Shown here: positions 10,063-55,406 of the stretch, in pieces
Position numbering within the stretch: the first letter of the stretch is position 1
How the letters are laid out: the number at the start of each line of letters is the position of its first letter
Origin: a virus
IMG/VR virus record: IMGVR_UViG_3300042868_006575
Location: 1 to 58,638 of that record
Length of the DNA: 58,638 nucleotides
Strand: one strand, 5' to 3'
Notes under the pieces: generated by a model
The model's input: only the letters and a program-made list of their open reading frames with translations
Databases searched by the model: none
What the model was told of the DNA's origin: nothing
Position numbers and translations under genes: made by a program

Positions 10063-10081
10063 AATTAAATTAATTAAACTA

Positions 10082-10750: not shown

Positions 10751-10752
10751 TT

Positions 10753-15660: not shown

Positions 15661-16047
15661 ATGGCAAATGCAACTAAAATATTAATTAGGCTTACTAAAT
15701 TTAGTTCAAAAATTAGTACAGTAGTAGATTGTACACAGGACTTTAATGCAAATAATAGTTATTATCAAGACATTTCTGGCTGGGATGTTGCGGTAGTTCA
15801 GTTGGTAAATCCGGGAACTACAGTACTGTTTAATACAACAAATGATGATGGTGCTATTACAGGTCAATTATTGCCTGCGCCTCAAGTTCCATTGTATTGG
15901 ACTCCGGTTTTAGGTGTTAATTTATCTACAAAAACCGATGTATCTTCATTGGCTGTAAGTGGTCTAGTTAGTTTTGGTATTGTTGGGAAGTATTTACAAT
16001 TAATTGCTTCTGGTTCAACTACCACAACAACAACTGCTGCACCATAA
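15661..16047 (+). CDS. Small virion protein with Thr-rich tail
   Basis: A 128-residue beta-rich protein of about 117 residues plus a short C-terminal tail of six Thr ending AAP. The body contains DFNANNSYYQDISGWDVAVV and looks like an all-beta domain. It lies between portal and scaffold genes, so it is probably a head-associated or decoration protein. It belongs to the group of small structural proteins in this window that share the Thr-AAP ending. Confidence 0.6.
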   Translation: MANATKILIRLTKFSSKISTVVDCTQDFNANNSYYQDISGWDVAVVQLVNPGTTVLFNTTNDDGAITGQLLPAPQVPLYWTPVLGVNLSTKTDVSSLAVSGLVSFGIVGKYLQLIASGSTTTTTTAAP

Positions 16048-22411: not shown

Positions 22412-25400
22412 ATGATAATAAATAACCCGTTTAATGGAAAGCTGAATTTAGATGATGCAGAATATAGAATCAGCAATGGTGACTATTTAGATGCCCTGAA
22501 TATTACTAAAGATGCTCAAGGCAGAGGTCAAGACGAAGTTATTTCTAACATTGTTGGGAATAGCTTGGTTCAATATACATTACCATCGGGTACTAATAAA
22601 GTAATTGGTTTTTATCCAGATAGAATTAGAAACAGAGCGTACTATTTTGTTTGGAATAGCAATAATTATCATAGCATATTGTATTATGATGTTGACAATG
22701 ATATTGTTGTAAAAGTTCTACAAAGCAGAACGGATAGTGACAATATTGATATTTTAAAGTTTAATCCTTCTTATAAGGTTCTTTCAGTAAATATTTTTTA
22801 TAGAGATGATGAGGGTGATATTTTATACTTTAACGATGGATTAAATCCTCCGAAAAGCATAAACGTAACAACCAGTTATGGTACTTCATGGAAAGAGGAG
22901 TATTTGCTTATTGCAAAAGCGCCTCCTATCATGCCTCCAAAAGTTGTTTACGAAAATGATACAAATGTTACTGTAAACAATTTGAGAAATGCATTATTTC
23001 AGTTTTCTTATAGATTTGTTTATGAGAATAATGAAAAATCTGTATGGAGTTCAAAAAGTATTGTTCCATTGCCTCAGCAACCAACTTTACAATTAACTGA
23101 AAGTAATTATTTTAATAATTCAAGAATATCTGTATCCGTTTCAACGGGTGATGCAAATGTTTCAGCTATTGAGATAGCATTTAGAGAAACAAAAAATCAA
23201 ACTACAAGTGATTGGTTTTTAATTAAATCATTTGATAAAACAGAGCTTTCTATTGGCAACAATCAGATTTATACTTATAAGTTTTATAATGACAGTATTT
23301 ATAATGCTATTGATGTATTAGAAACAACACAGCTTCAGGATTATGTTCCTCAAAAGGCTAATGCAGCGGAGTTGGCAAATGGTAATGTTCTTTTGTATGC
23401 AGGTATTACAGAAGGGTATGATAAGACTGATATGAATTTATTGTCTTATTCCGCAAATCCTGTCTTATCCTCTTATTATTATGACCAACCGGGTTTGTTG
23501 TTTTTTGCATCATGCAACGGGAAAGATAGTGGTTCTATTGGAACCCAAATGAAAATATATGTCTTTGGTACCGGAACTAATTCTAGTAATGGAACTATTT
23601 CTGTATTAAATAATCCATCAGGTCAGTATATTATCAATGCTGTAAATGATGCAGGTTCTTATATCGGATCTTCTTATGAGTATAGCTCGTCTACTCCTTT
23701 ATCGGTTTCTGCTTTTTTAGGAAACATATCTACCGCTTTGAGTATTAATGGTTGGTCGCAGGTTTCTTTAGTGGATAATGTACTTACTATGTCTTATCCT
23801 ACTTCTTTCACGTTATACTCAAGTGGTGTAAAATATAAGAGCGCAACAGGAAATCCAGATACCACAGTGTTTGCAAATGCATGGAATTCTGGATATCAAT
23901 ATGCTGTTCAGTATTTTGATGAGGAAGGTAGAACGATTGGTGCGCAAACTAAAATAGATGCTGCATTTAATACTCCAGACAATCCGGGTATTAAATATCC
24001 TCAAACATTTTTACAAATAAAAAACAGGCCCCCATTAGAGGCTGTTTATTATCAAGTTCTTAGATCTAACACGACAACTTACAATAAGAGATTATTCTGG
24101 ATTTGCGAATCGGCTTACAGAAGTCCATTATCTGGTGTAAATGTTGGCGTTTTTAATACTCAAGAATTTGCTTACATAGGAATTGGAAATATAGCTGATT
24201 ATAATAAAGAAATAAGTTCAACAGAAAATGTTGTATCTTATTCTTTTACTCCCGGAGATAGAATTACCTTTTTAAGAAGATATGACGCATCTGGTAATGA
24301 AAAAGGTATTAAAGTTGTTGATTATGAAATATTAGGTGTTGAGAATTCTATTTTAACCACAGCAGGAGATATAGTAGGAACTTTTATTAAGATAAAATAT
24401 CCAAAAGATGATATAAATGCTGATTTTAATTTTAATGGATATTTGGATTTAAACTTTATGCATTATGAAATATTTTTGTATAATTTAACAAGCGCAGCAG
24501 ATGTTAGTCAAAGATTTTTCTATGAATTTGGAAAATGTTTTGGTATAGGAAATGCCGGAACTGCTAACGCATATCATATAGGTCTTGAACAGACTCAATC
24601 TGCTACAAACCCAACAGGTGTACCTGCTATAGTTTCAGCTACTACGGGTGACTTTTTTTACAGAAAAAGACAAGTTCCATTTAGTGACGCAAATATATTT
24701 GATGCAGGTGATCAAGATGTAAATATACCTGCTACAAGTCCGGGGTTTTATAGAACAATAAATATAAAACCTAAATTCCCTATTGATACTCCGGATTATA
24801 GTATTCAAGCGGAAATTGAAAGTAACGCTTCTTATATATATGGATCTTATCCTACTTTTGCTGATCAAGCGTTTTTCTATAACAAGAGTGCAGGCGATAT
24901 TATGATTAAGGTAGCTTTTCAAATAAAAGTTACATCTACAATTGCTTTACAAGATATACCTAATGTGGTAATACTTCAGGTAGACTCTACTACCAAGACT
25001 TATGGCAATATGTTTTTTACCAAAACAGGTGATTTAACTAGTGGAGCTTTTTTGACTTGCGATACTATTATTAAGGTACCTGCTAATACTAAAATTTGGT
25101 TTGCTATTGATGGTGAAGATTGTTATGTAAGTAACTTTAAGCTTACTTTCAATGTATTAAAAAGCAAGGTGATTGACATTATTGAAAGCAGTTTTAGTGA
25201 TAACTATAATCTTGTTACAAATAGCAATGGCAGACCATCAGTGGTAGATGAAAACGCAAAAAGAACATACTTCCCTACATTAATTAGATTTAGTGGAGCT
25301 TATCAAGTTAATACTAATATAAATGCTACCAATAATTTTCAATATGAGAATTTTGACGAATACGATAGAAGTTTTGGTGATGTTATAAGGCTTCATGTTA

Positions 25401-26923
25401 GAGATAGGTATTTAAAAGTTTATCAGAAGTTTAAAGTAGGTAATGTTCCTATTTTAACACAAATAGTAAAAGATAGCGTTAATAACCCATTGCAAGCAAA
25501 TACAGATCAATTAATTAATAAGATTCAGTATTATGCTGGCGATTATGGAATTGGTGATGCCGCTACAAGTCTTGCATGGAATAACTTTGCAGACTACTTT
25601 GTAGACAACTATAGAGGCGTAGTGTGTAGATTGAGTCAAGATGGAATAACTCCTCTTAGTATTATCTATAACATGAACTCATTCTTTGTTTCTACCTTAA
25701 AAAATTATGATCAATCATTAAATAATGGTGTTACTGCGAACGGTGGTATATATACAGGTAACCCTTGTATATATGGCGTTTTTGATGCATACACTAATAG
25801 GTACATTATTACAATGGAGGAAATTAATAGGTACTCTGATTGTAATTTTAATGGAGGTACCGCTGTTGTAATTGGATCTGGGACTACAACTACTACAACA
25901 ACTACAACAACGATAGCTCCAGCTCCTTCTTACACTAAATCATCAGGCGTAACACTTAATGTAACACAATCGGGTTCTGTTACTTATAACGATGAAACTG
26001 GTAGTAAATTTGTAAACGCTTCTGTTGGGTTACTTCAGCTAACAGGATGTATTACATTATCATCTTTTGGTGGTACCGCTGTTTATGGTTTTGATGATTA
26101 TGGGCCTGATTGTTCCGCTGCAACAACTACATCTACAACAACAATACCTCCGGTGTATTATTATTACGCTGTTGATAAGTTCGATTGTGCAAGTGCTTGC
26201 GCTCCATTAGATACTGATTTAATAGCTAGATCACCAATTATTTTATCTGTTACAAATGGGTACTACTATAAGGTTGGTGGATATACTTACCAAATTCAAA
26301 ATCAAATTTTACCACCTCCGGGATTCTATTCTGTAGATTTAACAGGTGCTCCTTCTAATGCTAGTTGTGCAACAGCTTGCGGCTTAACAACTACAACGAC
26401 CACAACTACAACTGCGGCACCTACAACTACAACGACTTCGACTACAAGTACTACTACAACAACTACAGCTGCGCCTACGACTACAACTACTTCAACAACA
26501 AGTACAACAACTACGACTACGGCTGCACCAACTACTACAACAACAAGTACTACAACAAGTACCACAACTACTACGACTAGTACAAGTACTACTACCACTA
26601 CAACGGTAGCGCCTACAACTACTACGACTACAGCTGCGTTACCGACATTGTATGATATTACATCTAATTGTAGAGTTGCAATAGTTGGTGAGAATATTTG
26701 TAATGATGTAACTTGCGGAGAAAGAACGGTTTGGTCAGATTCGCCTGTTGTTGCATTTGGAGCTAAATTATATTCTAATAGTGGTGGAACTCCGTTATCT
26801 GGATATGGTTTTATAGTTAGATGTTCTGGTGGCTCTGCTTCAGGATATACTATTTATGAATTAATTGAAGGCGGTTCTGGAGGAAATACATTTGTAGGAA
26901 ATTCAATAGGATCTTCTTGTTAA
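22412..26923 (+). CDS. Tail stabilisation/muzzle-like protein with Thr-rich C-terminal modules
   Basis: A 1503-residue protein. The start MIINNPFNGKLNLDDAEYR and the beta-rich body to about residue 1150 resemble the stabilisation (muzzle) protein of crAss-like and related phages, the counterpart of the T7 nozzle. The body ends around IYGVFDAYTNRYIITMEE. From about residue 1158 the character changes to small Cys-containing beta domains separated by Thr-rich linkers. The longest linker (about residues 1325-1410) is nearly pure Thr with AAP and Ser. The part that normally follows the body appears to be encoded separately at 27837. It is probably built into the tail tip and displays the modules outwards. 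Confidence 0.7.
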   Translation: MIINNPFNGKLNLDDAEYRISNGDYLDALNITKDAQGRGQDEVISNIVGNSLVQYTLPSGTNKVIGFYPDRIRNRAYYFVWNSNNYHSILYYDVDNDIVVKVLQSRTDSDNIDILKFNPSYKVLSVNIFYRDDEGDILYFNDGLNPPKSINVTTSYGTSWKEEYLLIAKAPPIMPPKVVYENDTNVTVNNLRNALFQFSYRFVYENNEKSVWSSKSIVPLPQQPTLQLTESNYFNNSRISVSVSTGDANVSAIEIAFRETKNQTTSDWFLIKSFDKTELSIGNNQIYTYKFYNDSIYNAIDVLETTQLQDYVPQKANAAELANGNVLLYAGITEGYDKTDMNLLSYSANPVLSSYYYDQPGLLFFASCNGKDSGSIGTQMKIYVFGTGTNSSNGTISVLNNPSGQYIINAVNDAGSYIGSSYEYSSSTPLSVSAFLGNISTALSINGWSQVSLVDNVLTMSYPTSFTLYSSGVKYKSATGNPDTTVFANAWNSGYQYAVQYFDEEGRTIGAQTKIDAAFNTPDNPGIKYPQTFLQIKNRPPLEAVYYQVLRSNTTTYNKRLFWICESAYRSPLSGVNVGVFNTQEFAYIGIGNIADYNKEISSTENVVSYSFTPGDRITFLRRYDASGNEKGIKVVDYEILGVENSILTTAGDIVGTFIKIKYPKDDINADFNFNGYLDLNFMHYEIFLYNLTSAADVSQRFFYEFGKCFGIGNAGTANAYHIGLEQTQSATNPTGVPAIVSATTGDFFYRKRQVPFSDANIFDAGDQDVNIPATSPGFYRTINIKPKFPIDTPDYSIQAEIESNASYIYGSYPTFADQAFFYNKSAGDIMIKVAFQIKVTSTIALQDIPNVVILQVDSTTKTYGNMFFTKTGDLTSGAFLTCDTIIKVPANTKIWFAIDGEDCYVSNFKLTFNVLKSKVIDIIESSFSDNYNLVTNSNGRPSVVDENAKRTYFPTLIRFSGAYQVNTNINATNNFQYENFDEYDRSFGDVIRLHVRDRYLKVYQKFKVGNVPILTQIVKDSVNNPLQANTDQLINKIQYYAGDYGIGDAATSLAWNNFADYFVDNYRGVVCRLSQDGITPLSIIYNMNSFFVSTLKNYDQSLNNGVTANGGIYTGNPCIYGVFDAYTNRYIITMEEINRYSDCNFNGGTAVVIGSGTTTTTTTTTTIAPAPSYTKSSGVTLNVTQSGSVTYNDETGSKFVNASVGLLQLTGCITLSSFGGTAVYGFDDYGPDCSAATTTSTTTIPPVYYYYAVDKFDCASACAPLDTDLIARSPIILSVTNGYYYKVGGYTYQIQNQILPPPGFYSVDLTGAPSNASCATACGLTTTTTTTTTAAPTTTTTSTTSTTTTTTAAPTTTTTSTTSTTTTTTAAPTTTTTSTTTSTTTTTTSTSTTTTTTVAPTTTTTTAALPTLYDITSNCRVAIVGENICNDVTCGERTVWSDSPVVAFGAKLYSNSGGTPLSGYGFIVRCSGGSASGYTIYELIEGGSGGNTFVGNSIGSSC
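26388..26640 (+). repeat. Degenerate ACN-codon tract (Thr-rich linker)
   Basis: About 250 bases of ACN codons with AGT and AAP-encoding interruptions. The codons vary (ACT, ACA, ACC, ACG), so the protein composition is kept while the DNA is not a simple repeat. It lies in frame inside the 1503-aa gene. Confidence 0.8.
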
Positions 26924-26940: not shown

Positions 26941-27528
26941 GTGAACGTATTAATTAAATTAAATAGCGGACAAGGAGTTAGTTTAGGGCCGATTTTTACA
27001 TTGTCAGCAAATGTAGGATCGGTAGTTCCAAATACGGCTACTTTGGATGAATTGCTTGTTGGAAAGTTAGTTTCAATAGACAATGCAGCAACTCAGGTTA
27101 CTGTATTGTCAAATGGTCTTTGCGAAAACGCATTAGTTATTCCGGTAACTACAACCACAAGCACTACTACAACGACATCAACAAGTACAACTACAACACT
27201 TTCTGTAGATTGTGTGTTAGGTTCTGGAACCGTTCAGGTAAGTCCTTTTTTATATTTTCCCAATAGTTTTGCTTTTGTTCGTACGAATGAAGCAGGTTGG
27301 ACTTGTGAAATAGCAACTATTCCGTGTTATGGACCGCCTAATCCTACGGATCCAGTATTAGGTATTCCATTAAATTTGTATTCTAATATAGATGGGGTTC
27401 CTTTTGCTGATGTTATTCGTGTAGTTGACAGAAGGTTTGGATATGGTACCTTCCCGGCTGCTATATACGCTTATGACGCTTCGACTGGCGCCGTTGGAGC
27501 ATATTTGGGAACTTGTTTAGGTGGATAA
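26941..27528 (+). CDS. Modular decoration-type protein with internal Thr-rich linker
   Basis: A 195-residue protein from a GTG start. An N-terminal beta domain (about residues 1-70) is followed by a Thr/Ser-rich linker (about 71-92) and a second domain containing LYSNIDGVPFADVIRV. The LYSN-x-x-G pattern also occurs in the last module of the preceding 1503-aa protein (KLYSNSGGTPL) and as LYTNLDG in the next protein. This suggests duplicated modules. It lies between the two parts of the stabilisation protein and is probably a tail-tip decoration. Confidence 0.55.
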   Translation: MNVLIKLNSGQGVSLGPIFTLSANVGSVVPNTATLDELLVGKLVSIDNAATQVTVLSNGLCENALVIPVTTTTSTTTTTSTSTTTTLSVDCVLGSGTVQVSPFLYFPNSFAFVRTNEAGWTCEIATIPCYGPPNPTDPVLGIPLNLYSNIDGVPFADVIRVVDRRFGYGTFPAAIYAYDASTGAVGAYLGTCLGG

Positions 27529-27546: not shown

Positions 27547-27825
27547 ATGGGTGTAGCTAAAATAACATTATCATCAGCAGGTCCGGAAACTGGGCCGTTT
27601 GACTTGTATACAAATTTGGATGGATTTACAACTCCGTTTGAGGTTGGTGTTTCTAAGGCAGCTTTATTGGCTGGTTTTGTAAGTAATAATTTTCCTTACT
27701 CTCCCGTATATCCGGGACTTGGACAACCTGTGACGGTTAGGATTCAGTCAACTCTATTTTGTATAAATTATAGGGACGTTTCAGTTACATATCCTACAAC
27801 TACGACAACAACGGCTGCACCTTAA
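27547..27825 (+). CDS. Small decoration-type protein with Thr-AAP tail
   Basis: A 92-residue protein with one beta domain related to those of its upstream neighbour (FDLYTNLDGFTTPFEVGV), followed by a C-terminal tail of six Thr ending AAP. It lies in the insert between the stabilisation-protein body and its C-terminal piece. A virion location is inferred from the shared tail and domain. Confidence 0.55.
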   Translation: MGVAKITLSSAGPETGPFDLYTNLDGFTTPFEVGVSKAALLAGFVSNNFPYSPVYPGLGQPVTVRIQSTLFCINYRDVSVTYPTTTTTTAAP

Positions 27826-38301: not shown

Positions 38302-41300
38302 GTGGCAATACAGAATTTAATCAGCGGTGACTTAAAGCTTAGGGATGAAAATGGTATATTAGTTGCAGTAGATGGTATTGTATTTGCCGATACTTCTGGT
38401 ACTATAGGTACATCTGGAAGCAGTGGAACTAGTGGTAGCAGTGGTAGTTCATCTACTTCTGGTACTAGTGGTACTTCTGCGATAGGTTCTTCTGGTTCTA
38501 GTGGAACTTCTGGTTCTTCTGGTATTAATGGGACTTCAGGCACGAGTGGATCTTCTGGTAGTTCGTCTACCTCTGGCACTTCAGGTAGCTCAGGAACAGC
38601 TGGAACTTCAGGTACGACAGGTACTTCTGGAAGCTCTGGTACTTCGGCTACTTCAGGGACTTCTGGTACATCAGCTACTTCTGGTACTGATGGTACAGGT
38701 GGAACTTCAGGTACAAGTGGTACGTCTGCAACAAGCGGTACTTCTGGTACGACAGGAACTAGTGGCAGCTCTGGAACAAGCGGAAGCAGTGGCACTTCGG
38801 GTACAACAGGTACTTCGGGTACTTCTGCTACTTCAGGTTCTAGTGGCACCTCTGGAACTGATGGTACAGGTGGAACAAGCGGTACTTCAGGTACTGATGG
38901 AACTTCTGGAAGCAGTGGCACAAGTGGTACAACTGGAACTTCTGGAACTTCTGGCACAAGTGGATCTTCGGGATTATCTGGAACGAATGGAACTTCTGGC
39001 ACAAGCGGAACAGCAGGTACTTCAGGTATAAACGGTATGAATGGTGTTGCAGGTGGTCTTGTGTACTATCTGAATCAATCTTTAAATACCAGTTCTGCTT
39101 TTGGTACTCCAACATATAAGCAATGGTCACCTACAGCAGTAGTAGGAGCAGAGCAAACTGTAGTTACAAATGTAGCGCCAAATACAAGAACATTAATTGC
39201 AACTTTTGCAACTGATTCAGGTGTGCCTAATCTAACAAGCATACCTGCTGGTAACTGGGCTTGGGTAACGCACTTTTCTATTGATACAAATAGAAGTGTA
39301 GCAGTAGACATAGAACTTTATAAATACACAACGGGTGGTGTTTCAACACTTCTAGGTACTACAAACCTAGATACAGAGTCTATGTCAACAAATGTTATCA
39401 GAGAGTTTTTTACAGATTTGTTTTTAGGTCAAACCGCATTAAACGAAACAGATAGACTTTATTGTCAAATATATGCTGAATTTACTGGCGGTGGTAGTAA
39501 TCATAATATAACTTTTTATACAGAAGGTACGAGTAACTACTCATACGCTCAAACAACATTCAATCCACCAAGTGGTACTTCTGGAACAAGCGGTAGTTCA
39601 GGCGTAAATGGTAGTTCGGGTAGTTCAGGATATTCTGGCACAAGCGGATCTTCTGGTTCAAGTGGCGTAAGTGGAAGTAGTGGTACAAGTGGTTCTTCTG
39701 GAACAAGCGGTACTTCTGCGACTAGTGGAACTTCTGGCACAAGCGGTGTTGACGGAAGCGCAGGAACAAGTGGCACTAGCGGTACATCTGCTACTAGTGG
39801 ATCTTCAGGAACTACCGGTACTTCAGGTTCAAGTGGTACGAGTGGTTCAAGTGCAACGAGTGGAACTACCGGTACGTCTGGTACTTCTGCAACATCTGGA
39901 ACAAGTGGTACAACAGGAACCTCTGGTACTAGTGGCAGCTCAGGTGTAAATGGTACGTCCGGAACCTCTGCTACAGCTGGTACATCTGGAACTAGTGGAT
40001 TTACGCCTACCAATCAAGTAACGGGTACAGGTACTACTAACTACCTACCTAAGTTTACAGGTACAAGTACAATAGGGAATAGTCAAATATTTGATAATGG
40101 TACAGTTATAGGTATTGCAACAACGTCTTTAGTAGCAGATGCTTTATTACCAATTCAAATTAATGCAGGTGCTTCAGGACAGGCTTATTTTGCTTCTAAC
40201 AACAATGGTGGTTATGGCTTATTAATGGGTTATGACAATGCCAATGGATATGCAAGAATAAGAAACGTATCTAATACTGCTTTAACATTTGAAACAAACA
40301 ATACCGAAAGATTAAGGCTAACCGCTTCAGGCAATTTAGGATTAGGAGTTACACCGAGTGCGTGGAGAACAACCGAAAGGGCTTTACAAATTGGTGCTAC
40401 AACTTCGGTTACGGACATATCAAATTTTGCAGTATTTAGAAATAATAACTTTGTCAATACAAGCGGACAAGAAATTTATTTAACTACCAATGGGGCAAGT
40501 GCTTTAGTATTAGCACCAAATTCCGAATATAGATTTTTACAAGCAGCAGCAGGAACGGCAGGTAACGCTATATCCTTTACCCAAGCAATGACGTTAGATG
40601 CGAATGGTAGATTGGGAATAGGAGCAACTTCAATGACTTATGCTTTACAAGTCAATGATACGGCAGGTGGCAATATGTTTAGGTTTGCATCTGGTTCAAC
40701 TGTATTAGATTATTATGTTAGCGGTGGCAACCCTTCTTTTGGTACTGCATCAAATAACGATTTAAGATTTAGAACAAATGACACTACCCGTCTTACAATA
40801 GCCTCTACAGGAGCAGCTACTTTTTTTGGAAAAACAAATATATCAAAAGCTATTTCTGATTATGCTTTCACAATTACAAATACCGACTCCGATGGTTATG
40901 GAATGTATATACAAGCAGGTAGCACTAACAATGCTATTGATGTATATAATGCAGCAGGTACTACTCAATTATTTAAACTAACAGGAGCAGGAGCAGCTAC
41001 ATTCTCAAGTAGTGTAACGGCAACAGAGTTATATTTATCTACTTCAAATGGTTTAGTTGGGAATATTAATTCAAGCAATGCAAATGGTGGATATTTAACT
41101 TGGCAAACAAGTGGAACTACTATTGCGGATATTGGTACTGCACAACAAATATTTGGTAGTGGCGGAAATGCTACTTTCGGTATTAATGGTAGAGGCACAA
41201 GAGCAATAGCTTTCGGTACGAACAATACCGAGAGAATGAGAATAACCTCAGCAGGTAACATAGGGATTGGTACAACAAGTCCACAAGCTGACTTACATAT

Positions 41301-42105
41301 ATATAGAACAGGTTCAACTGGAACTATTACAACAGGCTTAAAAGTCAATCACGAGTGTAATGCTGATGATTTTGTAGTTTTTTTTACAGGCAATGAGTCA
41401 GTAGCAACAAATAGATTTGTAATGCTACAAGGCGGTAATATAGGTATAGGTACAAGTTCGCCAAGTCAGTTGTTACATTTAAAAACTGAGTTAGCAACAA
41501 GTAGCGGTGTAGGTACTGCAATACAAATAGAAAGTAGCGGTGCGGGTGGCGACCAAGCGTGGATTGGGGTTAATAAAGGTACAGGTAATGGATTAGAGAT
41601 TTCAGTTGAAAATAGAGATATAATATTTAACACAGGTGCAACAAGTCCGTTTGGTGGAAGCGAACGTATGCGCATAACAAGTGGGGGTGATGTATTAGTA
41701 AACGCAACATCAACAACTCAAGGAGCTAAGTTCTATGTAAATGGAATAGGTGCTTTTGGAAGTGTATATGTTGGAGCATTAGGCACAGGAACCGTTTACT
41801 CAAATGCAGGTTTCCTAACCAATACCAACCCTTCAGACAGAAGATTAAAAACCAATGTCATACCACTTACCTATGGTTTAGCTGACATATTAAAACTAAA
41901 TCCAGTTTCATATAATTGGAAAGACGGAACCAATGGTAAACAATTTGGATTCATAGCACAAGAAGTACAAGAAGTAATGCCTGATGCAGTAAAGCAAGGA
42001 GAGTACCTTGGGCTTGAAAAAGACGCTATCTATTCAGCTTTGGTAAACTCTGTAAAGGAACTTAATAAAGAAATAGAAATATTAAAATCACAATTAAATA
42101 AATAA
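38302..42105 (+). CDS. Collagen-like tail fibre with S74 chaperone domain
   Basis: A 1267-residue fibre translated from GTG. Residues about 30-247 and 423-566 are Gly-X-Y repeats dominated by GTS and GSS triplets, which can form a collagen-like triple helix. Between them lies a globular beta domain. A long trimeric beta region (about 570-1170) contains fibre repeats such as NTERLRLTASGNLGLG, NTERMRITSAGNIGIG and SERMRITSGGDV. The C-terminus has SDRRLKTNVIPL and FGFIAQEVQEVMPDAV, the intramolecular chaperone (peptidase S74/endosialidase) that drives trimerisation and is then cleaved before the conserved Ser. It probably binds the host receptor. Confidence 0.85.
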   Translation: MAIQNLISGDLKLRDENGILVAVDGIVFADTSGTIGTSGSSGTSGSSGSSSTSGTSGTSAIGSSGSSGTSGSSGINGTSGTSGSSGSSSTSGTSGSSGTAGTSGTTGTSGSSGTSATSGTSGTSATSGTDGTGGTSGTSGTSATSGTSGTTGTSGSSGTSGSSGTSGTTGTSGTSATSGSSGTSGTDGTGGTSGTSGTDGTSGSSGTSGTTGTSGTSGTSGSSGLSGTNGTSGTSGTAGTSGINGMNGVAGGLVYYLNQSLNTSSAFGTPTYKQWSPTAVVGAEQTVVTNVAPNTRTLIATFATDSGVPNLTSIPAGNWAWVTHFSIDTNRSVAVDIELYKYTTGGVSTLLGTTNLDTESMSTNVIREFFTDLFLGQTALNETDRLYCQIYAEFTGGGSNHNITFYTEGTSNYSYAQTTFNPPSGTSGTSGSSGVNGSSGSSGYSGTSGSSGSSGVSGSSGTSGSSGTSGTSATSGTSGTSGVDGSAGTSGTSGTSATSGSSGTTGTSGSSGTSGSSATSGTTGTSGTSATSGTSGTTGTSGTSGSSGVNGTSGTSATAGTSGTSGFTPTNQVTGTGTTNYLPKFTGTSTIGNSQIFDNGTVIGIATTSLVADALLPIQINAGASGQAYFASNNNGGYGLLMGYDNANGYARIRNVSNTALTFETNNTERLRLTASGNLGLGVTPSAWRTTERALQIGATTSVTDISNFAVFRNNNFVNTSGQEIYLTTNGASALVLAPNSEYRFLQAAAGTAGNAISFTQAMTLDANGRLGIGATSMTYALQVNDTAGGNMFRFASGSTVLDYYVSGGNPSFGTASNNDLRFRTNDTTRLTIASTGAATFFGKTNISKAISDYAFTITNTDSDGYGMYIQAGSTNNAIDVYNAAGTTQLFKLTGAGAATFSSSVTATELYLSTSNGLVGNINSSNANGGYLTWQTSGTTIADIGTAQQIFGSGGNATFGINGRGTRAIAFGTNNTERMRITSAGNIGIGTTSPQADLHIYRTGSTGTITTGLKVNHECNADDFVVFFTGNESVATNRFVMLQGGNIGIGTSSPSQLLHLKTELATSSGVGTAIQIESSGAGGDQAWIGVNKGTGNGLEISVENRDIIFNTGATSPFGGSERMRITSGGDVLVNATSTTQGAKFYVNGIGAFGSVYVGALGTGTVYSNAGFLTNTNPSDRRLKTNVIPLTYGLADILKLNPVSYNWKDGTNGKQFGFIAQEVQEVMPDAVKQGEYLGLEKDAIYSALVNSVKELNKEIEILKSQLNK
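38393..39042 (+). repeat. First Gly-Thr/Ser-Ser collagen-like block
   Basis: About 215 codons of Gly-X-Y triplets, mostly GTS or GSS, inside the fibre gene. The codons vary from copy to copy (ACT, ACA, TCT, AGT, AGC), so selection is on the protein. The block could expand or shrink by slippage or recombination. Confidence 0.85.
39569..40000 (+). repeat. Second Gly-Thr/Ser-Ser collagen-like block
   Basis: About 144 codons of the same triplet style, separated from the first block by a globular domain of roughly 175 residues. It is shorter and ends before the trimeric beta region. Confidence 0.85.
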
Positions 42106-42108: not shown

Positions 42109-42474
42109 ATGGCAACAACAGTATTTTCATGGACCATCAGCCAGCTCAATTGCGCTGTAGAATCTGAGGGCTTACCTGATGTGATCAATATGATACATTG
42201 GAGATATAACGCAACACAAGAGCATGATGGTAAGATCTATTTCGCTGATACCTATGGTTCATCAAGTGTAGCACAACCAAATCCACAAAACTTCATTCCT
42301 TACGCAGACGTAACAGAAGCCGAAGTTATCGGTTGGTTAGAAGAAATATTGCCTGTTGATGCTATGCAATTAGCTTTAGAGAACAATATTGCTTTACAGA
42401 TTAACCCTGTTGAAGTGACACTTCCATTACCTTGGCTTGCAACTACTACAACTACAACAACTTTAGCTCCATAA
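42109..42474 (+). CDS. Small structural protein with Thr-rich end
   Basis: A 121-residue protein with aromatic start TTVFSWTISQLNCAVES and a helix-rich centre EVIGWLEEILPVDAMQLAL. The end is a short Thr run followed by LAP, the sixth occurrence of a Thr-rich element in structural genes. It follows the fibre by three bases and probably belongs to the tail. No family is named with confidence. Confidence 0.6.
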   Translation: MATTVFSWTISQLNCAVESEGLPDVINMIHWRYNATQEHDGKIYFADTYGSSSVAQPNPQNFIPYADVTEAEVIGWLEEILPVDAMQLALENNIALQINPVEVTLPLPWLATTTTTTTLAP

Positions 42475-42893: not shown

Positions 42894-44960
42894 TTAAGCA
42901 GGCTGCGAACCTGCTTTTTTTATTTCATCTATTACCATATCAGGAGTAATACTATTCTGACATTCAAATTGTCTATCTGTTCCCTTATGTTTAGGGCAAA
43001 ATGCCCAATCTCCAGCATCAAATCTTATATCTGGCTTATTCCAACAACCATGACAGACATTTGTATTGTAAGGTCTTATACATTCAAATTCATGGTTAAT
43101 ATCAGTAAATCCTGCAATCATGATAACTTTCTTGCCTAATCCAAAAGCAAGCCATGAAATTCCTGATGATAATCCTATGAAAATTTCAGAATAATGTATA
43201 ACAGACATTGTATTTTCTATGCTAGTATCTTCCAATTGGTAGCAGTTGTTAAATGGATTGCGTTCTTTTGATGTATTTATGACATTGTAGCCACTTTCCA
43301 CCAAAAAGTCTATAACCTCCTGCCAATGACTTCTGAGCCAAAATTTAAGCCCTGAAGTGCTATTTGTAGCTATTGTAACATATTTGCCGTATTTATTGTT
43401 ACCTATGTCATATTTTAATCTTGGTCTAACTTCCTCAAAATCCAGTCCCAATATATTACTAGCTGCCTTTTGTAGCGGAATAGTATTGCATAATACAGGC
43501 TCTCTGTTTGAATCATAAAACCATCCAATCTTGTACATAGCATAACAACTTATAGAGCTGCCCGGCTCTACTAATTCTAATTCCGGATAGTCCAGTATTT
43601 TATTCCAAAAAGTAGATACAATGACTTTGCACTGATGCTTTTTTCTAAATTCTTCACAATATCCAATCCAAGCCAATGTGTCCCCTAAACTCTTGCTTTC
43701 AAAAGATATAAAGACTCTTTTGCCATGCAAATCCAATACGTTTTCATAGATTAAATCTCTGTCCTGATATACATACGTTTTCCATTTGGTATAGTATTGT
43801 CTATTAAGTCTTACCCAGCTATTGCTTTTGATTACACTTTGGTATTGGCATACATCATTTTCATCATAAAATCTAACATCAAAGTCACTATCGCTTTCTC
43901 CTTTTATTTCAAGGAAAGGGTGGTTGATGAAGTTTTGTAAGATGCGGACGGATTGTTTTTTAATAGGAAACTTTACGATTTCTTCGTACATCTTAACATG
44001 ATCTAATGCAAAATTTATTGAATTATTGTTATTTGGTATATTGTAATCTCTTGTAATAGTATATAAATCGCTATCTAATGGCTTTATGTATTTGTCTAAG
44101 GTGTCTTTGTAAGCTGGTAGGTTATTGGCTATAATCGGTAATCCAACCTCAATAGCATGTCGTATAGACAATGGGGAACATTCATTAGTAGAAGGGAATA
44201 TGAATATGTCAGCTGCCTGCAAAAGAATATCAATATCGCTTCGCTCTCCAAGTGCCTTAAAATTTGTTGGCAAATCTTTAATCAAATCCTCCCAATAAAA
44301 CTGAAAATTTCCGGCCATGTTACCAGCTACTACAAAATCAATATCCGGAAAATTCCGCGCAATAGCAATTGTTTCTTTTTGATTCTTTTGTGGTGTCCAA
44401 AGTCCAATATGTAATGCAGTTTTTCTATCTAAGGAAAATCCAACTTTCTTCTTTGCTTCCAACTTCATGTCAGAAGTTACCTCTTTTTCTTCTATTGGGT
44501 ACTGAATTGTGAAATATTTAGAGTCCATGTTTGCGTACACATCTTCATGAAAAGGAGTACAAAAAGCGTACAAATCTGGGTGGAATACCTTATCTGCATC
44601 AGGATTGAAAATGTTATCATGTGGGGTTTCTACAATTCTGTAAGTCCTATTATTTGAATATAAAGCTTTCGCAAGCTCTCTTGGTAACCTTTCAGCCACA
44701 TCTTCAATATGGACTATATCTGGATTTATCTGGTTAATAATATCCATTACGCGCATCTTATTCTCACCAGCTTCATAAAACCTATCACCAAGCAAATCTA
44801 CTATCTGATTCCTTTGAACCACATAAGCAGATCCATGAAAATTAAGCTCAATGCAATAAACTTCTATTCCCGAATATGCAAGTAAGCTTTGTATTCTTTT
44901 AAGCGCAAACATAGGTGCGCCACCCGTACTCAAATGGTACTCAATTAGTAATACTTTCAT
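42894..44960 (-). CDS. Two-domain glycosyltransferase: GT4-like plus BAHT-type heptosyltransferase-like domain
   Basis: A 688-residue protein. Residues 1-300 form a GT-B/GT4-type domain with STGGAPMF near 11-18 and ECSPLSIRHAIEVGLP (E260, E271), the E-x-E pattern for nucleotide-sugar binding. Residues about 415-688 resemble GT9/BAHT O-heptosyltransferases: GLKFWLRSHWQEVIDFL, then a Gly-Leu-Ser-Ser-Gly motif, then the finger CHGCW with C636, C639, C655 and C667 (spacing 2, 15, 11). In TibC-type enzymes a similar cysteine finger binds iron, and the enzyme adds heptose to Ser in beta-repeat proteins. Here it could modify the phage fibre or host surface. It overlaps the homing endonuclease gene. 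Confidence 0.75.
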   Translation of the reverse strand: MKVLLIEYHLSTGGAPMFALKRIQSLLAYSGIEVYCIELNFHGSAYVVQRNQIVDLLGDRFYEAGENKMRVMDIINQINPDIVHIEDVAERLPRELAKALYSNNRTYRIVETPHDNIFNPDADKVFHPDLYAFCTPFHEDVYANMDSKYFTIQYPIEEKEVTSDMKLEAKKKVGFSLDRKTALHIGLWTPQKNQKETIAIARNFPDIDFVVAGNMAGNFQFYWEDLIKDLPTNFKALGERSDIDILLQAADIFIFPSTNECSPLSIRHAIEVGLPIIANNLPAYKDTLDKYIKPLDSDLYTITRDYNIPNNNNSINFALDHVKMYEEIVKFPIKKQSVRILQNFINHPFLEIKGESDSDFDVRFYDENDVCQYQSVIKSNSWVRLNRQYYTKWKTYVYQDRDLIYENVLDLHGKRVFISFESKSLGDTLAWIGYCEEFRKKHQCKVIVSTFWNKILDYPELELVEPGSSISCYAMYKIGWFYDSNREPVLCNTIPLQKAASNILGLDFEEVRPRLKYDIGNNKYGKYVTIATNSTSGLKFWLRSHWQEVIDFLVESGYNVINTSKERNPFNNCYQLEDTSIENTMSVIHYSEIFIGLSSGISWLAFGLGKKVIMIAGFTDINHEFECIRPYNTNVCHGCWNKPDIRFDAGDWAFCPKHKGTDRQFECQNSITPDMVIDEIKKAGSQPA
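42896..42921 (+). terminator. Terminator overlapping a convergent gene end
   Basis: AAGCAGG (42896-42902) pairs with CCTGCTT (42910-42916) across a 7-base loop and continues into a T-run. It stops plus-strand transcription, yet its DNA also encodes the last residues of the minus-strand glycosyltransferase. Confidence 0.75.
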
Positions 44961-45765
44961 GTTTTTTTGAATTCAAGTTTTTAATTAATTGTTCTCTCAT
45001 TCTCTCTATAAATTCAGGGCTTCTTTTTTTGCCTTTATTTGCTAAAGAAATTTTATTTTTTGCTTCTTGACTAAGATTTTTCCCAAGCATTGGTGGATTT
45101 ATTTTAACTCTTTCTCTTTGTTTTTCATTCATTTCCTCAGTTCTCTTTTTGCCTTTATTCCCTAATGATATTTTTTTCTTTGTTTCTTCTGAATGGTTTT
45201 TCCCCCAATTTGGACTTAACTCTTTCTTTTTTCCCCACATTGCATTTTTTTCTTTTTCAAATAATCCAGTTACTCCTTTGTTCCAAGATGGTTTACCAAA
45301 ACAAGGATGATTTTCTCCTTTTTTTGCAGATATTTTCATTTTTTGTTTAGTTTCTTCTGAATGTTTTTTGCCCCAATTTGGACTTAATTCTTTGGATTTA
45401 CCAAACATAGCATTTTTAACACCCTTGCTTCTTTCGGAAAACTTCTTTTTTGTTTCTTCAGTATGTATAACTCCAAATGCTCCATCGCCACCATCTGTTA
45501 AATTGCATAAATTACCCAAGTTATTATTTCTTCTTCCGTAAAAAGAAATTAAATATTTTTCAATAGAACATGCCTCTTCCCATAATATATCCCTATGTGT
45601 TATTTCAACTATTATGCCGTATTTATCTTTTATTTTGTTCCAGAATTGGTTTCTTCTACTATTTATTTGGTATGCTCTTTTGTCAGATTTACCAATTCCA
45701 ACATAAAATACGTTTAAAAATGGATCTTCAATATCCTTCCTTCTGTGTATATAAACTATTGCCAT
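44941..45765 (-). CDS. GIY-YIG homing endonuclease with NUMOD3 repeats
   Basis: A 274-residue protein when started at the Met that gives MAIVYIHRRK. The GIY-YIG module comprises VFYVGIGKSDKRA, later NLGNLCNLTDGGDGAFG. Six or more NUMOD3-type DNA-binding units follow, each with a GK/W-N-K-G and HSEETKxK core (for example LSPNWGKKHSEETKQKM). Such enzymes cut at a specific site so that repair copies their gene into a new genome. It has entered the sugar operon between glycosyltransferase and small genes, overlapping the former's start by 20 bases. Confidence 0.85.
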   Translation of the reverse strand: MAIVYIHRRKDIEDPFLNVFYVGIGKSDKRAYQINSRRNQFWNKIKDKYGIIVEITHRDILWEEACSIEKYLISFYGRRNNNLGNLCNLTDGGDGAFGVIHTEETKKKFSERSKGVKNAMFGKSKELSPNWGKKHSEETKQKMKISAKKGENHPCFGKPSWNKGVTGLFEKEKNAMWGKKKELSPNWGKNHSEETKKKISLGNKGKKRTEEMNEKQRERVKINPPMLGKNLSQEAKNKISLANKGKKRSPEFIERMREQLIKNLNSKKHESITN

Positions 45766-45776
45766 AAAACAAAAAA

Positions 45777-45879
45777 TGCCCAAAATAGAAGGCTTATTCC
45801 CTTTATAAGATAATGTATAGGGACATCTAAATTGGGCAAAAAGTTTGTAATATTTTTAATCATATATAAGGGAATAAGC
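45777..45879. repeat. Interleaved inverted repeats upstream of the homing endonuclease
   Basis: TGCCCAA (45777-45783) pairs with TTGGGCA (45832-45838). GCTTATTCCCTT (45792-45803) pairs with AAGGGAATAAGC (45868-45879). The two pairs interleave instead of nesting. They could form an RNA pseudoknot, an operator pair or the scar of the intron/endonuclease insertion. The 118 bases between genes hold no other feature. Confidence 0.45.
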
Positions 45880-46735: not shown

Positions 46736-48082
46736 TTATTTGTTTAGTTGGTTTATAAATTCCTTAATCTTTTCAATGTTTTTTTCTCCATGATAGAAAA
46801 GGAGGTGTTCTTTATGTGAAGGTACTTTAATCCATGGCCCTATTAAATTATCATGACCAGTAAATTCTAGGTCTTTGTGTAGTCCATTGATGTAGCAGTA
46901 TGGTAATCCTGAAAACGTCATACGCTTATACAGAAGGGCTTGAAGTATTGTTTCTTCATGGAAGGGTGCGTAATAGTTGTGGTTCTTTAATACTTTAGGG
47001 TGGTTGCACATCCAGTACCACTCATCTAAAAACTCAATGGTATTTTGCCCAGCAACATAATATCCTGTTTGCCTGTATCTGTTACGGACATACTGGTTTA
47101 TGTTAAATAGTTCACAGGCTGGTGCTTCTAATGTAGTGCTTAAATCCGCCCTACTTTCAGCGCCACCTCTACCATTGACCATAAGATATTCATAGATACC
47201 TTCTGTAAAATAGGGGTGACTAGATTCTTCATTATAGAAAGTAAAGATGTTGTCAACAAATGGACTAGCCACAGAGTCAGAATCCACATACGCAATCGTT
47301 TCAGCATAGTTTTCCAGTGCATGTTTGGTTATTAAAGGTCTTTGTATAAGTAATTTGTAGATGCTTTTATTGGATCTATCAATGTAGTCGGCCCTTTGTT
47401 TCAGATGCTTTACATCACAATCCCATCTTATTGTTTCAGTATTTTCAATCTTTTTATCAGAGTTAAGCATGTAAACTAGGATTGGTATCTCGCTGAACTT
47501 ACGGATTGATTCAACGCACAATTGAACCAAATCGGCATACGACTCATCTGCATATAGCAAATAAGCTTTCTTATGCTTGTAAGTTCTGTTTACATAGTAA
47601 CCATAGTACTGGTTGGCATATAGTAGTTGTAATTCTGGGTATCTGGTTTCCATAACCTCCGGAGTTAAATCAGGCTGCAAATGAGTTTCATGGGCATTGC
47701 CTTCATGCTCTCCCTGTTCCATAAGATATGGCACTGCCACCAAGCACTGCTTACCACTGGTTACTATCTTTCTGATTATACTTTGTGCATCTTCCACGGA
47801 CAAATGCTCCAGCACATCACCCATGATGATAAACTCGTAATAATCAAAGTGAAAGCCAACTACGCTCTGTATAAATACGTTGTTGTATTTCTTATCTAAT
47901 TGGTAATTAACTACATAGGGTTCGTATATCTCTACGCAATCCATGTAGTAGCCATAGTTTTTTAGCATATCAGAATAGGTGCCAATACCAGCGCCTACAT
48001 CTAATATCTTTTTGTTTACGGCTACGTTATCTACAATGTAATCCCTGACTTCTTGTTTGAAAAATTGAAAGCTAGTTGGCAT
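46736..48082 (-). CDS. SAM methyltransferase fused to a glycosyltransferase domain
   Basis: A 448-residue protein. The N-terminal 150 residues are a class I SAM methyltransferase: ILDVGAGIGTY (26-36) and IIMGDVLEHL (85-94). From about 172 to 448 lies a GT-A-type domain with YADESYADLV, the divalent-metal DSD motif (267-269), HEETILQALLYKR and a late Gly-rich segment. The fused enzyme would transfer a sugar and methylate it or its acceptor. It starts the operon transcribed from the promoter at 48101. Similar DxD enzymes appear across the window at 53106. Confidence 0.7.
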   Translation of the reverse strand: MPTSFQFFKQEVRDYIVDNVAVNKKILDVGAGIGTYSDMLKNYGYYMDCVEIYEPYVVNYQLDKKYNNVFIQSVVGFHFDYYEFIIMGDVLEHLSVEDAQSIIRKIVTSGKQCLVAVPYLMEQGEHEGNAHETHLQPDLTPEVMETRYPELQLLYANQYYGYYVNRTYKHKKAYLLYADESYADLVQLCVESIRKFSEIPILVYMLNSDKKIENTETIRWDCDVKHLKQRADYIDRSNKSIYKLLIQRPLITKHALENYAETIAYVDSDSVASPFVDNIFTFYNEESSHPYFTEGIYEYLMVNGRGGAESRADLSTTLEAPACELFNINQYVRNRYRQTGYYVAGQNTIEFLDEWYWMCNHPKVLKNHNYYAPFHEETILQALLYKRMTFSGLPYCYINGLHKDLEFTGHDNLIGPWIKVPSHKEHLLFYHGEKNIEKIKEFINQLNK

Positions 48083-48129: not shown

Positions 48130-48137
48130 TATCTTTG
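48130..48137 (+). promoter_or_regulatory. Promoter for the DUF6165/lysis side
   Basis: TATCTTTG matches TAnnTTTG; AATTAATTTAATTAA lies just upstream and is shared with the divergent promoter. A possible TTG start at 48135 falls within this element, so the ATG at 48153, 15 bases downstream, is chosen. Confidence 0.6.
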
Positions 48138-48152
48138 CCTAAAATAATTATT

Positions 48153-48530
48153 ATGAAAATAGAAGTAAGCATTGGCGAAATAGCCGATAAGTACACCATC
48201 TTAACCATCAAATCATTTGAAATTTTAGACGAGCAAAAGCAAATTAACATTAAAAAAGAATGGAAGTACATCAATAGTGTAATAAAAGAAAGCTTTCCTG
48301 AATTAGCCGCAGATCCATTGACACATAGGCTTTTGGATATAAACAGGCAGTTGTGGGTGGTAGAAGATTCCCTCCGAGATTGCGAAAACGACAGGGAGTT
48401 TGATAAGTTGTTTGTCTTTTTGGCAAGGCAGGTTTACAGGCTAAATGACCAAAGAGCAGACATCAAGAAGCAAATCAACATAAAGTATAAGTCCGACATT
48501 GTGGAGGAGAAGTCGTATAACGCTTATTAA
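48153..48530 (+). CDS. DUF6165 family protein
   Basis: A 125-residue protein starting MKIEVSIGEIADKYTILTIK, the recognisable opening of DUF6165, followed by a mostly helical charged body. Members are often encoded next to glycosyltransferases in bacterial surface-sugar clusters, but their biochemical role is not known to me. Here it is divergent from the methyltransferase-glycosyltransferase gene. The association with sugar genes is therefore kept in this phage. Confidence 0.65.
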   Translation: MKIEVSIGEIADKYTILTIKSFEILDEQKQINIKKEWKYINSVIKESFPELAADPLTHRLLDINRQLWVVEDSLRDCENDREFDKLFVFLARQVYRLNDQRADIKKQINIKYKSDIVEEKSYNAY

Positions 48531-53062: not shown

Positions 53063-53093
53063 TTTTTTAATTTAATTAACTCGGTTAACTTTG
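53063..53093 (+). promoter_or_regulatory. Promoter for the second sugar operon
   Basis: TTAATTTAATTAA lies just upstream of TAACTTTG (53086-53093). The ATG at 53106 is 12 bases downstream. An earlier TTG start at 53091 overlaps the element and is rejected. Confidence 0.6.
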
Positions 53094-53105
53094 GAAAAAA
53101 AACAC

Positions 53106-54035
53106 ATGAAACTAAGATTTATTTGCGCTCAACCAACTTCCCTTTATTATGCATGGCAAGTAGAAGTTATGATAAATAACTTTATTGAAATGGGTATAAA
53201 TCCTAATATGATAGACATTGTTTGTTGGAAAATAAATGATGTTATTCCGGAGGAGTGGACTAAGCTGGCTGCCAATTATCCTGCAAGGTTCTTTTTTTAT
53301 TCTGATACCAGAGAAACCTCGCATTACATATCTTCAATACGTCCTAATATCTTAAAGCAGCACTTTGCAGCGCATCAATACATAGAGCAAGAGGCAGTCC
53401 TTTATCATGATTGCGATATAGCTTTTACCAAAAAGATAAACTGGGAGCAGTTTCTTGAAGATGACAAGTGGTATGGATCTGATTGTCGCTGGTACATAGC
53501 CCATAGCTACATATTAGGCAAAGGCCAAGACGTAATGGATAAGATGTGTGAAATAGTAGATATACCAGAAACATTGGTAAAAGACAATGAACTTAACTCA
53601 ATCGGAGCGCAATATTTAATGAAAGGCGTCAATGCGCGGTTTTGGGCGGACGTTGAAAAAGACTGCGAAAGACTATTCCATGAGGTAACGCAACTTAATA
53701 ATGAAAAGAAGCAAGCGGATCCAAGTCATCATGAATTACAGATATGGTGTGCAGATATGTGGGCGGTGCTATGGAACGGCTGGAAGCGTGGAGCGGAAAC
53801 AGTTTGCCATCCAGAATTAGAGTTTTCATGGGGTACAAGTACAGAAGCAGATTGGGATAGGTTAAATATATTCCACAATGCCGGTGTTACTACATCTGCC
53901 GGTGGGTTGTTTTACAAAGCAGAATACATGAATCAGTTGCCTTATGGTGCAACATTGAATATAAACGAGGGAACGGCCAGCAAGAAATACTGGGATATTA
54001 TACAAGAAACCGCTAAAAAATCAGTTTTATTATGA
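53106..54035 (+). CDS. GT-A-type glycosyltransferase-like protein
   Basis: A 309-residue protein with MKLRFICAQPTSLYYAWQV at the start, an LYHDCDIAF segment with DCD at residues 102-104 as the metal-binding motif, and a HELQIWCADMWAVLW helix with acidic residues that could contact the acceptor. It is the first gene after the promoter at 53063 and is followed by a FkbM methyltransferase with a four-base overlap. A role in sugar transfer to a phage or host surface molecule fits, but the acceptor is unknown. Confidence 0.6.
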   Translation: MKLRFICAQPTSLYYAWQVEVMINNFIEMGINPNMIDIVCWKINDVIPEEWTKLAANYPARFFFYSDTRETSHYISSIRPNILKQHFAAHQYIEQEAVLYHDCDIAFTKKINWEQFLEDDKWYGSDCRWYIAHSYILGKGQDVMDKMCEIVDIPETLVKDNELNSIGAQYLMKGVNARFWADVEKDCERLFHEVTQLNNEKKQADPSHHELQIWCADMWAVLWNGWKRGAETVCHPELEFSWGTSTEADWDRLNIFHNAGVTTSAGGLFYKAEYMNQLPYGATLNINEGTASKKYWDIIQETAKKSVLL

Positions 54036-54544
54036 CAACAAAAGTAGTAGAGTCGGAGAATCCACTTGAACATTGGAACGACATCCAGAATGTAGAAGGC
54101 AAAGTGGTGTTGGATTTAGGGTGCGGTTGGTTGTTCCAGCCATTTGAATCAACTCCGCAATATTTCATAAATAGAGGGGCTAAAAAAATAATTGGTGTAG
54201 ACGCATCATGCGGAGAGATTGAGAAACTAAATTCAACCTTCCCTGAACATACTTTTATTTGTAAAACCATTTCTAATTTTGATGATTTGCTTGGCTTGAT
54301 TACGGATCATAAGCCACAATTAATTAAAATGGATATAGAAGGCCATGAGCAACACATGAAGCATATTACTGCTGAACAATTTGAATCAGTGGAGGAGATA
54401 GCGGTTGAATACCACAATCCTACATGCAAAGAAATACTAGAAAAAAAATTAACTGAATTAGGTTTTGAGATATTTGCAACTAATCAATTTGGTTGGTTCT
54501 GCACAGATATTGAGCAAATGGGCATAATGCACGCAAAAAGATAA
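54032..54544 (+). CDS. FkbM-type methyltransferase
   Basis: A 170-residue SAM-dependent methyltransferase: VVLDLGCGWLF near residue 25, GVDASCGEIEKL, LIKMDIEGHEQH (the FkbM core) and a downstream SVEEIAVEYH strand. FkbM enzymes methylate sugars or small molecules. It sits between two glycosyltransferase-like genes, which implies methylation of a transferred sugar. Confidence 0.8.
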   Translation: MTTKVVESENPLEHWNDIQNVEGKVVLDLGCGWLFQPFESTPQYFINRGAKKIIGVDASCGEIEKLNSTFPEHTFICKTISNFDDLLGLITDHKPQLIKMDIEGHEQHMKHITAEQFESVEEIAVEYHNPTCKEILEKKLTELGFEIFATNQFGWFCTDIEQMGIMHAKR

Positions 54545-54545: not shown

Positions 54546-55406
54546 ATGATCATAAATAAAGCAACATACGGAGGTCAAGATTGTACTCAATTAATTAAGG
54601 ATAAAGTAGTATCAGATAAGCTTGTAGTAAGAGCTAATAATGATATTATAGGCGATCCGGCCGTTGGGGAGGTAAAGTATTTAGAGCTGGATATAGACGG
54701 CAATTTATTTAGTGTAAGGGAAGGTGGGGTATTTGTATATCCCAAGTCTAAAAGTAAAAAATTAGGCATATTCTATTCCAATAACAACAATAAAAAGATA
54801 TGGCCTTCAATATACAAGTCATTAAATACAATTAAGCAAGCCAGTAATGGAGTTGCGGACATTGTTACTTGTATGTGGGAGCCTATGCCGGAAAACCCTT
54901 TCTATCAAGTTAGAAGCTGGTACCAATCCCAATCTCATCTTAATCAGTTGCTCCAAATTATGCAGTGCCTTTACGCTGCACAAGAAACCGGTGAATATGA
55001 TTACGTTTCTTTTTTAGAGCATGACGTAATGTATCCAGAAGGATACTTTGATTTCCCTGAATTTGAGAGGGGCAGCGTTCTTACCAATATGAACTATGGC
55101 GGTCTTTGTATTAATGGTTGGCAAGAAAGAGGCCAAGATGATGAGCCATTTCACCAAATGACTATGAGATTTGAAGATGCCATTGAGCATTGCTTGTCAA
55201 TTTTGCCTAATGCCCTAAAAACGAACAGCGGTATGATTGAAAATCAAACAATAAGGCGGATCCAATGGAACTGCCAAAATCAAGCTATTCATATCAATCA
55301 TGGCGTACATTTTACCAGCCATAACTCAATATATCGCAAAGATAATTTATCTTTAACTCATAATTACTGGGGCGAATTGTCTAGTTATACCAATTTATTT
55401 GTATGA
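54546..55406 (+). CDS. Glycosyltransferase-like protein with DUF3395-like N-terminus
   Basis: A 286-residue protein. Residues 1-70 resemble DUF3395 (KATYGGQDCTQLIKDKVV, then NNDIIGDPAVG), a domain often attached to phage or DnaJ-C11-type proteins. Residues 75-286 look like a GT-A domain with FLEHDVMYPEGYF where the His/Asp pair could bind metal, and a long region with INHGVHFTSHNS. It is likely to be the second sugar transferase of this operon. Confidence 0.6.
   Translation: MIINKATYGGQDCTQLIKDKVVSDKLVVRANNDIIGDPAVGEVKYLELDIDGNLFSVREGGVFVYPKSKSKKLGIFYSNNNNKKIWPSIYKSLNTIKQASNGVADIVTCMWEPMPENPFYQVRSWYQSQSHLNQLLQIMQCLYAAQETGEYDYVSFLEHDVMYPEGYFDFPEFERGSVLTNMNYGGLCINGWQERGQDDEPFHQMTMRFEDAIEHCLSILPNALKTNSGMIENQTIRRIQWNCQNQAIHINHGVHFTSHNSIYRKDNLSLTHNYWGELSSYTNLFV

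Follow-up and report, generated by a model that had tools for sequence, protein, structure and literature searches.

Which molecule is modified by a large glycosyltransferase that a phage encodes next to its own tail fibre? The question is raised by a 58.6-kb viral record (58,638 nucleotides, analyzed at full length and hereafter called the window) that encodes a terminase and a portal alongside a two-domain glycosyltransferase gene (42894-44960, minus strand). The gene has an ATG start and an uninterrupted frame of 688 amino acids, and a first-pass annotation of the window described its product as a GT4-type domain joined to a GT9-like domain, an architecture that profile searches bear out. 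In the N-terminal GT4 domain (residues 1-330; 43971-44960, minus strand), Pfam Glycos_transf_1 matches residues 168-290 (E = 2e-14). Its EX7E motif reads E260...H268, that is, the second Glu is absent; at this position 29 of 33 relatives have Glu and four, the window enzyme among them, have His. Residues 525-637 match Glyco_transf_9 (E = 4e-6) within a C-terminal domain (residues 334-682; 42915-43961, minus strand) that comprises an N-terminal beta-barrel and a GT-B catalytic core. The NCBIfam profile TIGR04414 (hepto_Aah_TibC) covers residues 358-682 with E = 1e-72 and 245 bits, above its curated cut-off of 200 bits, which confirms the suspected TibC relationship, and the RfaQ and RfaC profiles match weakly (E = 6e-4 for RfaQ). 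Directly upstream of the gene, and overlapping its start by 20 bases, lies a NUMOD3-bearing, homing-endonuclease-like ORF (44941-45783, minus strand).

Protein O-heptosyltransferase activity has been demonstrated for TibC (PMC4358343). A phmmer search of the PDB with the window enzyme identified TibC (4rap, E = 1.5e-46), with both the finger and the active site aligned. An AlphaFold2 model of the enzyme (mean pLDDT 90) used as a Foldseek query returned TibC as the first 21 matches, the best being 4rap_E (E = 8.3e-28, TM-score 0.81 by target length, rmsd 2.4), so that the expected superposition on BAHT folds is indeed observed. TibC binds iron through C339, C342, C358 and C370 in a finger that serves dimerisation and substrate recognition (PMC4358343). 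The finger noticed earlier in the window enzyme, C636-x2-C639-x15-C655-x11-C667 (42960-43055, minus strand), aligns with it and has exactly the same x2-x15-x11 spacing, a pattern that arises in 1 of 20,000 shuffles of the sequence; in an alignment of 42 relatives the four cysteines are invariant, and the spacing between them is altered in some. The active site is likewise retained: the catalytic base D110 of TibC aligns with D427, and T226, K230 and W305, which contact the sugar phosphate, align with T535, K539 and W603. Across the 42 relatives, D427 and K539 are invariant, T535 is found in 35 (the rest have Ser) and W603 in 41.

Other parts of the TibC machinery are missing. Arg286 of TibC, which contacts the adenine of ADP-heptose and whose replacement by Ala is among the changes that abolish or largely diminish activity, corresponds to Thr584; the adjacent E582-N583 offer no Arg either, and only six of the 42 relatives have Arg at this position. 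The beta-hairpin thumb, with its hydrophobic tip F265/V266 in TibC, is required there for assembly of the active dodecamer; in the window enzyme it is shortened by a deletion and the model contains no hairpin. The position of P300, which sets the epimer choice in TibC, is occupied by Ser, as in AAH. Neither an ADP-heptose donor nor a dodecameric assembly is therefore established for the window enzyme: its donor specificity may differ, given the missing Arg286 equivalent, and its oligomeric assembly probably does. For these reasons, the enzyme is TibC-type by sequence and modelled fold and we do not class it as a bona fide BAHT. No autotransporter partner was detected among the window genes searched by profile, and the neighbour of the enzyme is a collagen-like fibre.

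This fibre (38302-42105, plus strand; 1267 amino acids) ends in a Peptidase_S74 chaperone and is the putative substrate. It contains 99 Gly-[Ser/Thr]-[Ser/Thr] triplets, or 297 residues, against a shuffled mean of 22.6, so that an earlier estimate of about 360 triplet residues was roughly right. The triplets are concentrated in two regions, residues 33-250 (38398-39051, plus strand) and 425-556 (39574-39969, plus strand), and the triplet blocks contain no proline at all. A proline-free Gly-Thr-Ser repeat alone is not expected to make a stable collagen helix.

Genes of the two types also occur together in many other phages. A scan of IMG/VR yielded 62 loci, 59 of which include the TibC-type half, in forms that range from about 400 amino acids (stand-alone) to 1600; the other three (L061-L063) match the GT4 half only. 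A Gly-Ser/Thr-Ser/Thr repeat ORF lies within about 8 kb of the enzyme gene in 44 of the 46 TibC-type loci whose 3' flank could be read. The raw count is 44 of 59; among the 15 repeat-less loci, all but two (L017 and L019) end within ~3.3 kb on the 3' side, hence the denominator of 46. Under a stricter definition of the repeat, 38 of 59 loci are positive. The repeat ORF is usually located 3' of the enzyme gene on the opposite strand; L048 and L050 have it 3' on the strand of the enzyme gene itself, and L058 and L059 have it 5'. None of the three GT4-only loci has a Gly-Ser/Thr repeat. An isolate, the Microcystis cyanophage Mel-JY01 (PP395634.1, enzyme of 1226 amino acids), and the jumbo phage LR756501 both encode a TibC-type protein and, no more than a few kb away, a Gly-Ser/Thr ORF; no such ORF was detected in the 31-kb stretch of another jumbo phage, LR756504. 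At 50% identity the TibC domains of nearly all loci cluster together, which yields no count of independent origins. A scan of bacterial genomes gave five loci, all matching the TibC half; two (L143 and L146) contain GSS-type repeats, the repeat ORF of L146 overlapping another gene. A TibC-type gene is also found in a metagenome-assembled contig labelled Pacearchaeota (L144), possibly a misbinned viral contig. In locus L010, a 348-aa frame rich in Thr/Ser runs (10069-11115, minus strand) lies on the strand opposite the TibC-type gene and overlaps its end; it may encode a mucin-like protein or be an antisense artefact.

The association was also examined from the side of the fibre, using contigs of 40 kb or more that were selected solely by a Gly-Thr-Ser-type repeat. 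Contigs with Gly-Pro-x collagen served as the control, because a sample drawn with a random 16-mer pattern was too small (15 stretches, two of them at least 40 kb). TIGR04414 was found in 24 of the 38 repeat-chosen contigs and in 1 of the 24 Gly-Pro-x contigs, and in this lone positive (G072) the stretch holds Gly-Ser/Thr repeats as well. For contigs with Gly-Pro-x collagen alone, the comparison is 24 of 38 versus 0 of 23 (Fisher p = 2.4e-7, uncorrected for phylogeny and with controls not matched by host).

At closer range, we searched the whole records of phages with a terminase 82-100% identical to that of the window. TIGR04414 is present in 17 of the 18 records of this lineage that are at least 50 kb long, which makes the enzyme a core gene, and all 17 enzyme-bearing records also contain the fibre repeats. 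The sole exception (G007; L080 and L081) has neither TIGR04414 nor the repeats and may simply not cover the enzyme/fibre region. This 59.9-kb viral record contains the terminase gene twice, once in each orientation, which has the look of a duplication made in assembly. Among the matches listed, distant terminase relatives in a collection of named phages (~23-29% identity) come from phages of Flavobacterium, Cellulophaga, Tenacibaculum and Maribacter and from one uncultured phage; six phages with such terminases (five flavobacterial, one uncultured) have neither the enzyme nor the repeats. Because the distant terminase relatives are mostly flavobacterial, the host of the window phage is probably a member of Bacteroidota.

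Taken together, we consider it likely, with a probability of roughly three in four, that the gene encodes a protein O-glycosyltransferase acting on the fibre of the same phage, the choice of substrate following from the gene linkage. The best surviving competitor, which we nevertheless regard as unlikely, is that the enzyme acts on glycans of the host surface, either LPS/O-antigen or capsule, to block superinfection and that its proximity to the fibre reflects a host-recognition cassette. This is the usual interpretation of phage glycosyltransferases near tail fibres, for example in pelagimyophages (PMC7029224), and one of two offered for Nanopelagicales phages (PMC10202952); moreover, LPS heptosyltransferases belong to glycosyltransferase family 9, and weak RfaQ/RfaC matches do exist. 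However, the protein-modifying TibC family is by far the best match (1e-72 versus 6e-4 for RfaQ) and the similarity includes the finger, the association is with one sequence type of fibre, Gly-Ser/Thr-Ser/Thr, rather than with collagen-like fibres generally, and the gene belongs to the core of its lineage as opposed to a variable accessory complement.

Another set of potential acceptors within the window are poly-Thr runs in six other ORFs (9649-9975, minus strand; 15661-16047; 22412-26923; 26941-27528; 27547-27825; 42109-42474), four of which are C-terminal tags ending near AAP (TTTTTTAAP). The first-pass annotation regarded these as six structural genes with Thr-rich elements; the six poly-Thr ORFs are there, but a profile supports a virion-structural role only for 22412 (phrog_14478). 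The last of the six (42109-42474, plus strand), a DUF7936 protein with a terminal tag, adjoins the fibre gene and is a possible second substrate. The motif T6-AAP-stop is found in 94 IMG/VR stretches, and poly-Thr tags are frequent in the terminase lineage. As 16 of 26 contigs picked by the tag carry TIGR04414, the tags may be additional substrates. It could even be supposed that these small or structural proteins are the main targets and the fibre is a secondary target or none at all, in line with the glycans at the C-termini of mycobacteriophage capsid and tail-tube proteins noted in PMC12619734. Two records (G006 and G023) that contain the enzyme and the Gly-Ser/Thr fibre without any six-Thr run eliminate the tags as a necessary partner or sole target, and many distant TibC-type loci have the fibre without a tag in their flanks; we accordingly consider this possibility improbable.

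The gene linkage itself could in principle be fortuitous, with the enzyme and the repeat fibre functionally unrelated and both merely common in large aquatic phages. Consistent with this, no phylogenetic correction enters the comparison of contigs, and 14 of the 38 repeat-bearing contigs lack a TIGR04414 match, although two of these (G005 and G025) are fragments of the lineage in which the enzyme is core. Such a coincidence appears very improbable given that the genes lie within a few kb of each other in 44 of 46 loci and in several arrangements, that the association extends to phages that differ in size and in host, among them a cyanophage and a jumbo phage, and that related phages missing one gene also miss the other. 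Glycosylation of phage DNA (hypermodified bases) against restriction, a known role of many phage glycosyltransferases (PMC12619734), can be practically dismissed, considering that the TibC family modifies proteins and that no base-hypermodification gene was seen in a non-exhaustive search of the window ORFs. Glycosylation of the fibre thus remains our preferred interpretation. The original proposal of a phage-borne O-glycosylation system for virion parts holds with respect to the TibC relationship and the fibre link, which survives the controls, and requires revision in that Arg286 and the thumb are missing and the tags are dispensable.

Several other window genes are predicted to be involved. 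The product of 46736-48082 (minus strand), separated from the enzyme gene by the NUMOD3 ORF and two small ORFs, is modelled as a SAM methyltransferase with an attached GT-A-like domain and shows 52% identity over 439 aligned positions to the N-terminal part of a 1136-aa relative (L023), in which a methyltransferase and a glycosyltransferase domain are fused ahead of GT4-TibC. In another fused relative (L044, 1603 amino acids), GT4, GT25-like, TibC-type, FkbM methyltransferase and DUF6165 domains form one chain. The window encodes a separate DUF6165 protein (48135-48530, plus strand), 46% identical to the C-terminal domain of L044, and an FkbM-like methyltransferase with weak matches (54032-54544, plus strand). 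Because relatives fuse the same domains to the TibC-type enzyme, the separate methyltransferase/glycosyltransferase and DUF6165 genes of the window are suggested to act in one pathway with it. Of the three additional glycosyltransferase-like genes that had been listed (46736, 53106 and 54546), the first is confirmed, whereas the second, delimited here as 53091-54035 (plus strand), matches only phrog_4417, a family to which no function is assigned, and is only a possible further glycosyltransferase; the third (54546-55406, plus strand) gave no glycosyltransferase match in profile searches. The N-terminal stretch of the latter resembles the L-rhamnose-binding lectin 5h4s (E = 3e-9), and the protein is possibly a lectin joined to another domain.

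With regard to the donor sugar, rfaE domain I, rfaE domain II and gmhA all went unmatched in profile searches of the window, so that any heptose donor would be host-derived. Some relatives appear to be better equipped. In one clade (L035, L038, L039 and L047), rfaE-domain-II-like and rfaE-domain-I-like genes (HldE-like halves) are directly downstream of the enzyme gene; one contig (G101) has an HldD-like gene together with both HldE-like halves, and the jumbo phage LR756504 encodes a clear GmhA. The rfaE domain I kinase is found in 10 of 52 TibC-positive records; with G072 counted, the comparison is 11 of 53 versus 1 of 42 TibC-negative records (p = 0.01). With the exception of GmhA, the phage heptose-activation proteins score below curated cut-offs. 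A complete phage-encoded heptose pathway was considered as a general feature and rejected, gmhA being present in just 1 of 40 records. Coordinates of heptose-activation genes (HldE halves, HldD-like, GmhA) in TibC-type phages are 756-1875 and 1-756 (both minus strand) in L501, 10173-11296 in L035 and 1402-1968 in L504. The donor is probably a nucleotide-activated heptose or a related sugar, supplied by the host in the present case and partly phage-made in some relatives; with R286 lost, ADP-heptose is not to be assumed for the window enzyme.

We propose a tentative scheme in which the TibC-type domain would attach the initial sugar to Ser/Thr hydroxyls in the repeats of the neighbouring fibre (38302-42105). 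Extension of the glycan would then fall to the fused GT4 domain and to the GT-A domain of the 46736 protein, and methyltransferases, including that of the 46736 protein, would cap it. With the proline-free repeat alone not expected to form a stable helix, the sugar may hydrate, shield or stiffen the shaft, a role already proposed for glycosylated BclA, or may help it to fold. A bolder generalization, which we put forward only as a conjecture on which we would not wager, is that these phages represent a large, unreported aquatic class, probably from several host phyla, in which a modular TibC-type assembly coats proline-free Gly-Ser/Thr-Ser/Thr shafts with heptose-based methylated glycans, the activated heptose being partly self-made in some of the phages, and the sugar allows the shafts to fold or survive.

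The first-pass annotation considered self-glycosylation of phage virions to be undescribed. This is not the case: it has been reported for the mycobacteriophages Che8, Corndog and Myrna (PMC12363180 and PMC12619734, both citing Freeman 2023), and what appears to be new is confined to the enzyme, of TibC type, and to the fibre as its target. A search of open-access journal papers found no report joining TibC or O-heptosyltransferases with phage virions or fibres; glycosyltransferases near aquatic phage fibres are usually interpreted as LPS- or DNA-modifying (PMC10202952, PMC7029224). The pairing of one enzyme type with one fibre repeat across many phages suggests a substrate, open to testing, for a set of common enzymes that lack an assignment, and may explain why proline-free Gly-Thr-Ser shafts exist. 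If correct, the proposal would add a second enzyme class for phage virion glycosylation and bear on the resistance of fibres to proteases, antibodies or host enzymes. It would also show that phages carry ADP-heptose-type genes; elsewhere, this sugar nucleotide is associated chiefly with LPS and with adhesins of bacteria.

Four known systems come closest to this locus. With the BAHT family (TibC/AAH; TIGR04414; PDB 4rap/4rb4), the window enzyme shares the above-cut-off profile score, the N-terminal barrel and GT-B fold, the finger spacing, the equivalents of D110, T226, K230 and W305 and, with AAH, the Ser at the P300 position. It differs in the fusion to GT4, the shortened thumb and the missing Arg286 equivalent, and in being encoded by a phage without an autotransporter, the likely acceptor being a Gly-Ser/Thr-Ser/Thr phage fibre. 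Pelagimyophage host-recognition clusters similarly contain glycosyltransferase and rfaE-type genes, often beside tail-fibre genes, but have been interpreted as LPS-modifying, with neither a TibC relation nor a fibre acceptor proposed (PMC7029224). Should our proposal be right, phage enzymes would put sugars on the structural proteins of the phage itself, as in Che8, Corndog and Myrna; the mycobacteriophage targets are the capsid and tail tube, whereas in the window the partner of the TibC-type enzyme is a collagen-like fibre. Finally, sugars are known to sit on collagen-like Gly-x-y proteins, namely the Bacillus spore protein BclA, where they are thought to improve the hydration network, and a giant-virus protein, the mimivirus collagen, which is also hydroxylated (PMC8968730); in contrast to both, the window fibre is a Gly-Thr-Ser protein without proline and its candidate glycosyltransferase is TibC-like.
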